Assembly: GCF_002813755.1 (NCBI RefSeq)
Contig: NZ_CP018061.1
Span: 676,501-740,500 of the forward strand
Reading direction: 5' to 3'
Source of the DNA: Enterococcus mundtii
GTDB taxonomy: Bacteria > Bacillota > Bacilli > Lactobacillales > Enterococcaceae
Length of the DNA: 64,000 nt
Of the stretch, positions 54,009 through 61,643 are shown piece after piece. Each line of letters starts with the position of its first letter. The stretch's first letter is position 1. The translations under genes were made by a program, and so were the position numbers. The notes beneath the pieces were generated by a model. That model ran no database searches. It was not told the origin of the DNA and was given only the letters and a program-made list of their open reading frames with translations.

Positions 54009-54102
54009 AAGAGGATTGTAAATCAAACCGTCAATCCAAGAGGATAACTAATGATCAAAATGAGAATAAGTTGTGGAAACAACGTTTGGATCAAAAAAAC
54101 GA

Positions 54103-54157
54103 AGCGCTAAAAACCAAAATCGTTTGTTCTATTTTGGCTTTTTAGCGCTATTTTTTT
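54103..54157 (+). terminator. Terminator of the cel-type operon
   Basis: AGCGCTAAAAA and CCAAAAT (from 54103) pair with ATTTTGG and TTTTTAGCGCT (to 54150), followed by seven T. Confidence 0.88.
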
Positions 54158-54272
54158 AAATCATTTTTTTGTGGCAGACTACTTTTTGAAAAGGAATGAA
54201 GGTCCGCCTGCTATTCTTATAAAGAAAAAAATAGTACAATTGGTATAGATATTTAAAGGAAGAAGGGGAAGT

Positions 54273-55764: not shown

Positions 55765-55940
55765 AGTTTATTCCAATAGCAAAAAATGGATGCTACCTCA
55801 TAATCGAATAAAATGACTTCGCATAATGTATTTGGTAATAAGTTGAAAAATGGAGTTTTACTTTTGTTGCTATTTTTTTAAAAGAGCAGAAATATAATAG
55901 GGGATTGTGACCTATGGCATCTCAGGATTCCTAAAACTAA
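55765..55940. other. Intergenic region before the repeat element
   Basis: AT-rich, no gene or clear terminator. It ends with CTCAGGATTCCT (55921-55932), the left arm of a 12-bp inverted repeat whose other arm is at 56209-56220, enclosing tRNA-Arg. Confidence 0.4.
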
Positions 55941-56033
55941 ATAAACAGTGTTCATAAGAAATAAGCCCGCCCCCCAAAATACAAGAACCAATTTCTGGGG
56001 AGCAGGCTTATTTCTCGGAGCTGAACATCACTA
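55941..56033. repeat. Solitary hairpin element related to the 60107 array
   Basis: Begins ATAAACAGTGTTC (55941), one base different from ATAAACGGTGTTC that opens the array units. GAAATAAGCC (55958-55967) pairs with GGCTTATTTC (56005-56014), with further pairing inside, and AGTGTTC pairs with GAAC further out. GGAGCTGA (56018-56025) also matches array unit 1. On the reverse strand it lies just past the tRNA and could act as its terminator. Confidence 0.6.
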
Positions 56034-56059
56034 TCACAAACTCGTGATAAGTTCTAAGA

Positions 56060-59261: not shown

Positions 59262-60026
59262 ATGATAACATTAAAATCAGCACGTGAGATCGAAGCAATG
59301 GCAGAGTCTGGTGCATTATTAGCAGATGTCCATAAAAATCTGCGAGACTTCATTAAACCAGGAGTAACTAGTTGGGATATCGAAGTATTTGTGCGTAATT
59401 ATATTGAAAGTCATGGCGGAGTCGCTGCCCAAATTGGATTTGAAGGATACGAATATGCGACATGTATCAGCATCAATGATGAGATCTGTCATGGGTTTCC
59501 CCGAAAAAAACCACTTAAAAGTGGTGACTTAGTGAAAGTAGATATGTGTATCGACTTAAAAGGCGGAATCTCTGATTCTTGTTGGGCATATGTGGTCGGT
59601 GAATCCACACCTGAAATTGATCGATTGATGGAAGTGACAAAAAAAGCACTATATATCGGCATTGAGCAAGCACAAGTTGGTAATCGTATTGGGGATATTG
59701 GTCATGCAATCCAAACGTACGTCGAAGGAGAAAATCTAGGAATCGTACGAGACTTTGTTGGACATGGGGTAGGACCAACGATCCATGAAGAACCAACTAT
59801 TCCTCACTATGGTGAACCTGGCAAAGGGCTAAGATTAAAAGAAGGTATGGTCATTACGATCGAGCCAATGGTCAATACAGGAACATGGAAAATGAAAATG
59901 GACCCAAATGGTTGGACAGCGTATACCAGAGATGGTGGGTTATCTTGCCAATATGAACACACATTGGCTATCACTAAAGATGGTCCAAAAATCTTGACTT
60001 CTCAAGGTGAGGAAGGAACTTATTAA
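59262..60026 (+). CDS. map: Methionine aminopeptidase, type I
   Basis: A 254-residue M24A enzyme removing N-terminal Met. Metal ligands: Asp in VKVDMCIDLKGGISDSCWAYVVG, His in VGHGVGPTIHEEPTIPHYG, Glu in MVITIEPMVNTG and in CQYEHTLAIT. The segment TGTWKMKMDPNGWTAYTRDGGLS is typical of map in this group. AAAAAGGAGAC precedes ATG 59262. It lies before the hairpin array and yihY, as in E. faecalis near the epa locus. Confidence 0.93.
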   Translation: MITLKSAREIEAMAESGALLADVHKNLRDFIKPGVTSWDIEVFVRNYIESHGGVAAQIGFEGYEYATCISINDEICHGFPRKKPLKSGDLVKVDMCIDLKGGISDSCWAYVVGESTPEIDRLMEVTKKALYIGIEQAQVGNRIGDIGHAIQTYVEGENLGIVRDFVGHGVGPTIHEEPTIPHYGEPGKGLRLKEGMVITIEPMVNTGTWKMKMDPNGWTAYTRDGGLSCQYEHTLAITKDGPKILTSQGEEGTY

Positions 60027-60041
60027 GTTCTTCTTTCCGTG

Positions 60042-60092
60042 AACAGTTTTCAAACTGTTTGATTAACTAGAGAAAGTTGTAGATGACTTTCT
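60042..60092 (+). terminator. Hairpins after map
   Basis: Two stems: AACAGTTT/AAACTGTT (60042-60059) and AGAAAGT/ACTTTCT (60071-60092) followed by TCTTC. Likely the map terminator, though T-tracts are short. Confidence 0.5.
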
Positions 60093-60106
60093 TCTTCAAA
60101 TAATGG

Positions 60107-60226
60107 ATAAAAGTTGTAGGAAAGCTAGTAACTAAGATAGTAGGGTGGCAATTGGAAAAATATGTCTATTATTTTCTGGTTTGCCACCCTTTTCCTCAGT
60201 GTTATTAGCTTTTTTTTACAACCTAG
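60107..60226 (+). repeat. Array unit 0 (degenerate opening)
   Basis: Outer stem AAAGCTA with TAGCTTT and TAAC with GTTA; inner stem GGGTGGCAA with TTGCCACCC; apex GGAAAAATATG...TATTTTC. A run of eight T follows the outer stem, so this copy resembles a terminator. Confidence 0.7.
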
Positions 60227-60347
60227 ATAAACGGTGTTCAAAAGCCAGCTCCTTCAATATTAAGGCAAAATTTGAAAAAATATGAAGAGCTATTTTCTCA
60301 AATTCTACCTTAATACTTGGAGCTGACCGGCTTTTTCACACCCTATG
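60227..60347 (+). repeat. Array unit 1
   Basis: Outer AAAGCC/GGCTTT and AGCTCC/GGAGCT, second stem TATTAAGG/CCTTAATA, inner AATTTGA/TCAAATT; four extra bases (GACC) bulge on the 3' side. Confidence 0.8.
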
Positions 60348-60465
60348 ATAAACGGTGTTCAAGAAGCAACACTTCAATAATAAGTAAAAAAAATCCAAAA
60401 TGAAAAAGCCATTTTCGATTTTTCTGCCTTATTACTCAGTGTAGACCGCTTCTTTCACAACCTTG
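60348..60465 (+). repeat. Array unit 2
   Basis: Outer AGAAGC/GCTTCT and ACACT/AGTGT, second stem AATAAG/CTTATT, apex AAAATGAAAAAGCCATTTTC; bulge AGACC on the 3' side. Confidence 0.8.
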
Positions 60466-60585
60466 ATAAACGGTGTACGAAAAGTTGACCTTCAACATTA
60501 AGCTAAAAAATCAAAAAATATGGGGAGCTATTTTCTGATTTTCTATCTTACTGCTCAGGTCAAAGCGCTTTTCTCACAACCTATG
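60466..60585 (+). repeat. Array unit 3
   Basis: Outer GAAAAG/CTTTTC and TTGACCT/AGGTCAA, weaker middle stem, apex AAAATATGGGGAGCTATTTTC. The opener is ATAAACGGTGTACG. Confidence 0.8.
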
Positions 60586-60705
60586 ATAAACGGTGTTCAA
60601 AAGCCAACTCCTACGATATTAAGAGCAACATCGAAAAAATATGAGAAGCTATTTTCTCGATGTTGCTCTTAATACTTGGAGCTAAGCGGCTTTTTCACAA
60701 CCTTG
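60586..60705 (+). repeat. Array unit 4
   Basis: Outer AAAAGCC/GGCTTTT, then TATTAAGAGCAACATCGA pairing perfectly over 18 bp with its complement (60657-60674), apex AAAAATATGAGAAGCTATTTTC. The yihY ribosome binding site (CAGGAG) follows directly. Confidence 0.8.
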
Positions 60706-60719
60706 AACAGGAGATTACT

Positions 60720-61643
60720 ATGAATATTTTGAATAAAATAAAACAACATAAGAATTTAATGCGTTTTATTGAGACGACGCAAAAGAGGATCGTTGATTCT
60801 GAAATGGGAACGACTTCAGTAGTTGTGGCTTATTATTTACTCTTATCTTTGTTTCCATTGATTATTGCGCTTGGAAATATTCTACCGTATCTTCAAATCG
60901 ATCAAGAAACTGTCTTGACTTATATTCGCCAAGTGATTCCTGAAACGATCTATCAGTTTATTGGACCGGCGGTAAAAAATTTGTTGACACAAAGTTCTGG
61001 TAGTTTGTTGTCATTGTCAGCTATTGCAGCTTTATGGTCAGCTAGTCAGAGTATCAATGCATTACAGATTGCCATGAATAAAGCGTATGGAGTTGAAAAT
61101 AGAGAAAATTTCATCATTGTCCGTTTCTTTTCCTTAATAGTTATCATCTTGTTCATGATTGCGATTAGTGGTGTCACTTTAGTACTTGGATTAGGACAAA
61201 TGATTTTAGAGGCGATTCAACCGATCTTTAAAATACCTGTAAACTTTATTGACCAATTCCAAACATTGAAATGGCCGATTACTTTGGTGGCATTATTTGT
61301 GATCATGTTTATGATTTATTGGATTGTACCAAATGCGCAATTGAAATTTAAAGCAGTGATTCCTGGTGCTGTATTTGCAACGACTGGTTGGATGTTGTTG
61401 TCACAAGTTTTTGGGATTTATGCTCGTTATTTTGCAACGCGTGTGAGCGGTTATCAAATCATCGGAAGTTTTATCGTTTTGATGCTTTGGTTAAACTTTG
61501 CTGCGACGATCATTATTCTTGGTGGAATCATCAATGCTGTTGTGCAAGAGTACATAACAGGAAACGAAATAAAAGAACGAAGAAGCATCACATCAACATG
61601 GCTTGGTAAACTAAAAAATAAATTTTCTCAAAAAAAGAATTAG
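60720..61643 (+). CDS. YihY/BrkB-family membrane protein
   Basis: A 307-residue YihY (formerly RNase BN) protein with six membrane helices. Family blocks: SVVVAYYLLLSLFPLIIALGNILPYL, IAALWSASQSINALQIAMNKAYGVENRENFI, AVIPGAVFATTGWMLLSQVFGIYA and GSFIVLMLWLNFAATIIILGGIINAV. Proposed as a lipid or polymer exporter; function is unproven. ACAGGAG precedes ATG 60720; a frame running to 60660 enters the last repeat unit and is rejected. It leads into the epa genes. Confidence 0.88.
   Translation: MNILNKIKQHKNLMRFIETTQKRIVDSEMGTTSVVVAYYLLLSLFPLIIALGNILPYLQIDQETVLTYIRQVIPETIYQFIGPAVKNLLTQSSGSLLSLSAIAALWSASQSINALQIAMNKAYGVENRENFIIVRFFSLIVIILFMIAISGVTLVLGLGQMILEAIQPIFKIPVNFIDQFQTLKWPITLVALFVIMFMIYWIVPNAQLKFKAVIPGAVFATTGWMLLSQVFGIYARYFATRVSGYQIIGSFIVLMLWLNFAATIIILGGIINAVVQEYITGNEIKERRSITSTWLGKLKNKFSQKKN

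Follow-up and report, generated by a model that had tools for sequence, protein, structure and literature searches.

A tandem hairpin array between map and yihY in Enterococcus mundtii, probably composed of modules of an Efa-1/EFAR-like miniature element

BOX, RUP, REP/BIME, ERIC and integron attC are dispersed structured palindromes, in places modular or tandem, which are recognised or spread as structures; to our knowledge, none of them replaces the tip of a target hairpin. The EFAR elements of Enterococcus faecalis, which Venditti et al. are said to have described in 2007, are reportedly miniature insertion sequences of 42–650 bp, most of them 170 bp, with two stem-loops. They are said to be built from several sequence types and to insert into stem-loops, whose stem remnants are left at their ends. 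We know of EFAR in E. faecalis only, and of no account that gives it inverted-repeat ends, IS1272-type replacement or strand asymmetry.

From the same species, Petrillo et al. 2008 listed Efa-1, an intergenic repeat of 163 bp with 65 (18) copies formed by a pair of adjacent stem-loops (PMC2267715). A larger element, IS1272 of the IS1182 family, is 1,945 bp long, encodes a transposase and has 16-bp inverted repeats at its termini. In S. aureus, it took the place of inverted repeats measuring 24, 30 and 22 bp and left no target duplication; a left-end tandem duplication was present in two copies (PMC5678879). Here we analyse a hairpin array in a stretch of 64,000 nt of E. mundtii DNA (the window). 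We consider it probable, at about three chances in four, that the array is made up of tandem SLS2 modules from a MITE of the Efa-1/EFAR-like kind, which spread by transposition with hairpin replacement.

Structure of the five-unit array

The array lies between map and yihY and consists of five tandem units at 60105–60703, each 118–120 nt long and separated by 0–1 nt (Table 1). Each unit folded as one long hairpin, as first described from the sequence for five tandem repeats of about 120 bp. With a few flanking bases included, fold energies of units 1–5 were −43.6, −39.7, −27.7, −28.1 and −44.7 kcal/mol, corresponding to z-scores of −5.5, −7.2, −5.1, −3.4 and −7.4 against dinucleotide shuffles; for each unit, none of 200 shuffles folded as well as the native sequence. 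Different paired stems are present: AAAAGCC/GGCTTTT in units 2 and 5, AAGAAGC/GCTTCTT in unit 3 and GAAAAG/CTTTTC in unit 4. The initial annotation had given the units a fixed opener and a fixed closer, which is true in part. The opener is exact in units 2, 3 and 5 but reads ATAAACGGTGTAC in unit 4, the closer differs in unit 2, which ends CACACCC, and both are divergent in unit 1. This first unit (ATAAAAGTTGTAGG...TTTTACAACC) retains its own end pairing, and the same divergent unit opens the arrays of the relatives G007 and G010.

Table 1. Features of the array region and of a second, degenerate copy in the window (R1, covariance model built from 35 units)
Feature	Position	Strand	Remark
Probable SLS1 remnant of second degenerate copy	55900..55939	+	left end GGGGATTGTGACC...; by eye against other copies
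Degenerate, shortened SLS2 module of second copy	55940..56042	+	beside tRNA gene; R1 match 38.2 bits
Upstream neighbour, methionine aminopeptidase-like, map	59262..60026	+	putative name, from reading the protein
Unit 1, divergent SLS2 module	60105..60223	+	end pairing GTTGTA/TACAAC; R1 match 60106-60224, 40.4 bits
Unit 2, type A SLS2 module	60225..60344	+	R1 model 119.5 bits
Unit 3, type B SLS2 module	60346..60463	+	R1 model 110.9 bits
Unit 4, type C SLS2 module	60464..60582	+	R1 model 116 bits
Unit 5, type A SLS2 module	60584..60703	+	near-perfect inner stem; R1 model 129 bits
Downstream neighbour, yihY-like	60720..61643	+	name from the initial annotation; protein in 15/15 genus genomes

We then scored covariation in an alignment (A2) of 35 divergent units from the window genome and other genomes. 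At least one change on both sides was found in 34 of 42 pairs, and the covariation score was 0.527 against 0.165 for shuffles, none of 500 of which reached the native value. Registers slid by 1 to 3 columns scored at most 0.134, a comparison favouring the true register since the sequences scored were also those used to draw the structure. The earlier proposal of covarying stems under structural constraint is upheld: the array units are real and structurally constrained.

Paired stems could also be maintained with no structural selection at all, through quasi-palindrome correction, in which template switching during replication uses one arm as the template for the other. Copies would have spread by recombination or by a template switch, mediated by microhomology, into other hairpins. 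Single units with long, perfect and novel stems (e.g. L020:754-872), units whose two arms belong to different types, and GAG/CTC common to the element ends and one of the target sites analysed below (L042) would all suit such a process. Between close copies, however, 99 one-sided changes (48 A.C, 20 G.T, 31 transversions) were counted against a single paired change in 72 disjoint pairs of 0.95–0.995 identity; one-sided changes outnumbering paired ones, the arms are not quickly copied. The persistence of conserved asymmetric bulges, the fixed ends of the copies in genome G005, and an excess of A.C over G.T that requires a strand-specific cause all speak against template switching as well, and we hold it to be distinctly improbable.

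The complete element and its distribution

A BLAST search of the array against its own genome gave at least 51 matches at no fewer than 40 places (best 40 of 99 candidates scored), a count that takes in the query array and a small number of palindrome matches in antisense. In the stretches of this genome examined with the model, the matches formed 39 arrays or single copies, of one, two, three, four and five units in 19, 9, 5, 3 and 3 cases, respectively. The genes on either side, roughly identified by taking whichever open frame within 500 bp was longest, were oriented rev/fwd (10), rev/rev (10), fwd/fwd (9), fwd/rev (7) or none/rev (3); this analysis used 79 of the 131 own-genome model matches, with window, antisense and weak rows set aside.

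In many of 20 own-genome copies inspected, the 119-nt hairpin (SLS2) was preceded by a conserved stretch carrying a short hairpin (SLS1). The order is a left end GAGSNTGGGACA... (SLS1), a linker ...ACCGATAAAC and the SLS2 ending ACAACCTC. We read the whole as a gene-less complete element of about 170 bp, presumably a MITE with inverted-repeat ends. SLS1 folding was clear at locus L038 and only partial at L042. In a 747-kb E. faecalis record with 10 model matches, one of them the antisense of another, the clearest copies carried an SLS1 of about 42 nt (GAGCGTGGGACAAAAATC...GTCCCACGCTC) followed by a 120-nt SLS2; the two-hairpin fold was obtained for two of the E. faecalis loci (L189 and L193) and for a L. 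plantarum plasmid locus (L187). Copies in G005 had fixed ends, mostly 170–176 bp apart (query 245-248 to 417-420), with 90–99% identity among the matches listed. Two adjacent stem-loops over some 163–170 bp in an intergenic position, the build of Efa-1/EFAR-like elements, were thus seen in L189, L193, the G005 repeat and those single copies of the window genome that have an upstream hairpin. The left end approximates the reverse complement of the right end, near GAGSNTGGGACARAAGT. Among 110 distinct SLS1-motif elements (of 673 pattern-matched units), a mean of 9.7 of 18 end positions were identical, against 5.0 after shuffling; some copies thus lack recognisable ends, 27 of the 110 having at most 7 of 18 positions alike.

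The array in the window contains SLS2 modules only, with no clear SLS1, and its outer stem score of 6.5 is not convincing. At 54068–54187, the model also matched the minus strand weakly (28.6 bits); this match coincides with a terminator-like hairpin and is probably due to chance.

The repeat is dispersed in other genomes too: of 105 Enterococcaceae genomes, counting that of the window, 82 had an R1 match (at most the 34 best candidates scored per genome). In a phylum-wide draw of 398 genomes, the window genome was the only one with a match, and DNA similarity alone gave matches in 22 of 40 relatives. An exact pattern was present in 103 stretches of named genomes; the 80 listed comprised 75 from Enterococcus or Enterococcaceae MAGs and 5 from Staphylococcus (S. 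pseudintermedius, S. microti). In S. pseudintermedius (L095:3950-4260, L100, L116, L120), SLS2 lay within a longer, near-identical repeat of about 300 bp with its own upstream hairpin. A search of viral contigs gave no match. In a phage collection, the repeat was found in 107 records named Listeria phage (e.g. OR847731.1, OR846935.1); among the matches listed, all were unannotated contigs called LM 4-11-1 or LM 4-14-1, which may derive from the host or from contamination and not from phage. The repeat was also present in plasmid records filed under Klebsiella, E. coli and Pseudomonas (CP069368.1, CP069369.1, OL539428.1, NZ_CP151545.1), in one of them under a feature annotated efrB; these records are possibly mislabelled or contaminated with Enterococcus.

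This dispersal bears on the first interpretation of the array, as a structured leader acting in cis or a set of small RNAs that would control yihY and the epa genes. The strong covariation and the position of the array, which ends 16 nt ahead of the yihY start codon, are compatible with it. The position is not conserved, however. Among 15 genus genomes, the map-yihY gap carries the array only in the window genome (5 units) and in G007 and G010 (3 units each), the closest relatives with 99% YihY identity, and in decayed form in G004; in 10 of the 15, the gap measures 23–44 bp and has no array. In G002 (L212), it holds about 350 nt of different sequence with hairpins (by eye), so this spot accepts repeats in more than one lineage. 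The same units at 40 or more genome places, next to genes in all four orientations, likewise argue against a leader. At the gathering score, Rfam returned only a tRNA in the window and no match in six loci; promoter-like matches in 59980–60800 were at chance level (3 versus 2.0 expected), no terminator-like match was found in the same interval, and on the would-be leader strand G.T pairs are rarer than A.C. The array is probably not a control region for its neighbouring genes, and the leader or small-RNA interpretation, as proposed at the outset, is in our judgement most improbable. Two further candidates were rejected: at permissive Rfam thresholds the best weak match was an unrelated miRNA model, the weak miRNA matches being generic hairpins, and TIGR-like guide arrays and CRISPR were dropped as the variable parts here are complementary arms and not spacers.

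Insertion sites, strand asymmetry and candidate mechanism

Empty sites were found for two loci only, L042 and L041, in each case against the relatives G007 and G010. At L042, the empty site is a plain hairpin (AAAAAATGAGTGTTACTTAAAAGTAGCACTCATTTT in G007, longer in G010). In the window genome (G000), AAAAAATGAG...CTCATTTT is retained and the element replaces the tip. At L041, the empty hairpin (AAAACAACACCTACGAAGAAAACAGTTCTTCATAAGTGTTGTTTT in G007, nearly identical in G010) corresponds to AAAACAAC-element-GTTGTTTT in the window genome. Both empty sites are terminator-like hairpins, and at both loci target duplication is absent and the target inverted repeat is replaced. Judged from these two empty sites, the family is mobile.

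We further examined the outer stems that such insertions would leave. For all 111 arrays and single copies, the mean score was 5.51 versus 5.46, and scores of at least 8 were obtained in 12 cases versus 7.2 expected, hardly above chance. For 117 unique SLS1-motif copies, a subset chosen by a loose pattern after the all-array result, the mean was 4.12 versus 3.14 (sd 0.11; maximum of 200 permutations, 3.41), clearly above chance. Scores of at least 8 were reached by 13 of the 117 versus 1.4 expected (highest 5.1). A few rows of this subset may be chance. Insertion into a stem-loop with stem remnants at the ends, as reported for EFAR, was thus seen at both empty sites and in 13 of 117 outer stems, the test on all 111 being not clear. 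By eye, several of the best outer stems resemble the A-tract/T-tract bases of terminators.

Mismatches within the stems differed between the strands. On the strand first read, one-sided changes from or to Watson-Crick pairs involved A.C in 176 cases and G.T in 65, counted over 401 distinct units in 149 disjoint close pairs of 85–99.5% identity. The two halves of the count agree: G/A opposite C 92 versus C/T opposite G 42, and T/C opposite A 84 versus A/G opposite T 23. A smaller count on 40 of 84 own-genome units gave 45 A.C versus 13 G.T. Since A.C on the strand first read is a G.T wobble on the complementary strand, this suggests, at the level of sequence comparison, that selection acts on the folded complementary (bottom) strand, as DNA or RNA. 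The A.C/G.T ratio was 2.7 in the true register against 0.83–1.94 in slid registers, and composition may contribute to the asymmetry as slid registers give up to 1.94. The balanced gene orientation in the window genome argues against explaining the asymmetry entirely by a bias of replication or transcription. Pair counts, typing, adjacency and strand fold comparisons used the best 84 of the 131 own-genome rows (83 distinct ones in the first mismatch count). A comparison of fold energies was discarded. Of 97 thinned units, 90 folded more strongly as the bottom strand, yet 84 of 97 did so in a reversed-sequence control, as expected since reversal keeps the pairs; the energies are therefore no more informative than the pair counts.

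Imperfect hairpins with conserved asymmetric bulges and with strand asymmetry of tolerated mismatches would also be expected if they served as substrate of a single-strand enzyme, either an IS200/IS605-type Y1 transposase, a RAYT or an integron-like recombinase, as for REP and attC; Y1 matches were indeed present in 13 of 15 genus genomes. However, no association with IS200/IS605 (Y1) elements was detected: none of 22 Y1 loci with flanks of about 1.5 kb (22 of 30 fetched) contained an R1 match, so that the hairpins were absent from the ends of these Y1 elements, and two genomes (G008 and G014) had 33 and 34 R1 matches and no Y1 match. The inverted-repeat ends fit a DDE transposase better, and the two empty sites show removal of the target hairpin tip, which no Y1, RAYT or integron-like enzyme is known to us to perform. 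We regard a single-strand enzyme of these kinds as unlikely.

Hairpin-replacing transposition, the reading we prefer, would proceed as follows. A transposase acting in trans on the inverted-repeat ends would put the element in place of the tip of an inverted repeat resembling a terminator, keeping the outer stem of the target and making no target duplication, as in IS1272. Arrays would then lengthen and shorten by gain and loss of SLS2 modules of differing types, and drifting stems would keep their pairing, since the single strand that folds, most likely the complement of the strand first read, must hold its shape. We infer transposition as the cause, an IS1182-type (IS1272-like) transposase, by analogy, as the candidate partner, and the folded strand as the putative substrate. 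The element carries no transposase gene of its own, about 170 bp leaving no room for one. On the genome's own 147-kb second contig, 10 of the 18 frames of 380–640 aa (whole frames within 20-kb pieces) were scanned, and none of these 10 had a DDE-transposase Pfam match. Similarly, no full-length IS with the same ends was seen in the fetched loci, nor any by product names in three annotated plasmid stretches.

More speculatively, the element could move as a folded single bottom strand, SLS1, SLS2 and the host outer stem forming a three-way junction on which a dedicated enzyme would exchange hairpin tips. We consider this less likely than not. If true, such tip-for-tip exchange would explain together the strand-specific wobble tolerance, the covarying stems, the terminator targets and the presence of unlike modules in arrays.

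Change in array size was seen at several loci. Besides the map-yihY array, of 5, 3 and 3 units in the window genome, G007 and G010, one locus carries two units in the window genome but a single unit in G007, and at another, G007 has a remnant besides four units where G010 has an end remnant only. Neighbours were of like type in 5 of 37 cases versus 12.3 expected (p 0.006), and at identity above 0.85 in 2 of 42 versus 4.4 (p 0.16), a weak tendency. At one locus of the window genome (L034), a C-like SLS2 lies between SLS1 and the other SLS2, where the G007 counterpart (L309) consists of a single unit. The comparison suggests that it is on the SLS1 side that unlike modules are added to arrays. 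Three units (L019:516-634, L028:514-629 and L199:1249-1366) have, by eye, a 5′ arm of one type and a 3′ arm of another, with some stems unpaired; they are probably products of recombination between units via the conserved apex.

Comparison with described elements

We take the family of the window array to be EFAR-like, with the same build and target choice. Filing the array with the Efa-1/EFAR-like kind is the best explanation by analogy, the match being one of build and target description and not of sequence. A repeat like one listed for E. faecalis would then be nearly family-wide (82 of 105 Enterococcaceae) and extend to two Staphylococcus species, and an orphan repeat family would be tied to a transposition mechanism, whose missing enzyme becomes a target that can be searched for. 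More generally, copies within a single genome may covary with no regulatory RNA behind it, since a mobile palindrome produces the same signal, and A.C versus G.T counts between close copies can hint at the strand that keeps the structure.

The initial annotation knew of no described element of this build, but a family of the same two-hairpin build, likened here by description, is in print for E. faecalis as Efa-1 (PMC2267715). The clearest E. faecalis copies of the present family, with an SLS1 of about 42 nt beside a 120-nt SLS2, resemble it by description. Unlike the present family, Efa-1 is listed only for E. faecalis in the available text of that paper, which describes neither tandem SLS2 arrays, nor empty sites, nor covariation. 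In the open-licence literature searched, we found no account of a distribution across the family, of a link to inverted-repeat replacement or of the strand asymmetry.

According to the available text on IS1272 (PMC5678879), this element differs in its transposase gene, which has no counterpart in the element of about 170 bp described here. Both have terminal inverted repeats (here a mean of 9.7 of 18 positions versus 5.0), likened by their presence and not by sequence. In both, finally, an inverted repeat of the target, of 22–30 bp for IS1272, is replaced with no target duplication, as observed here at L041 and L042.
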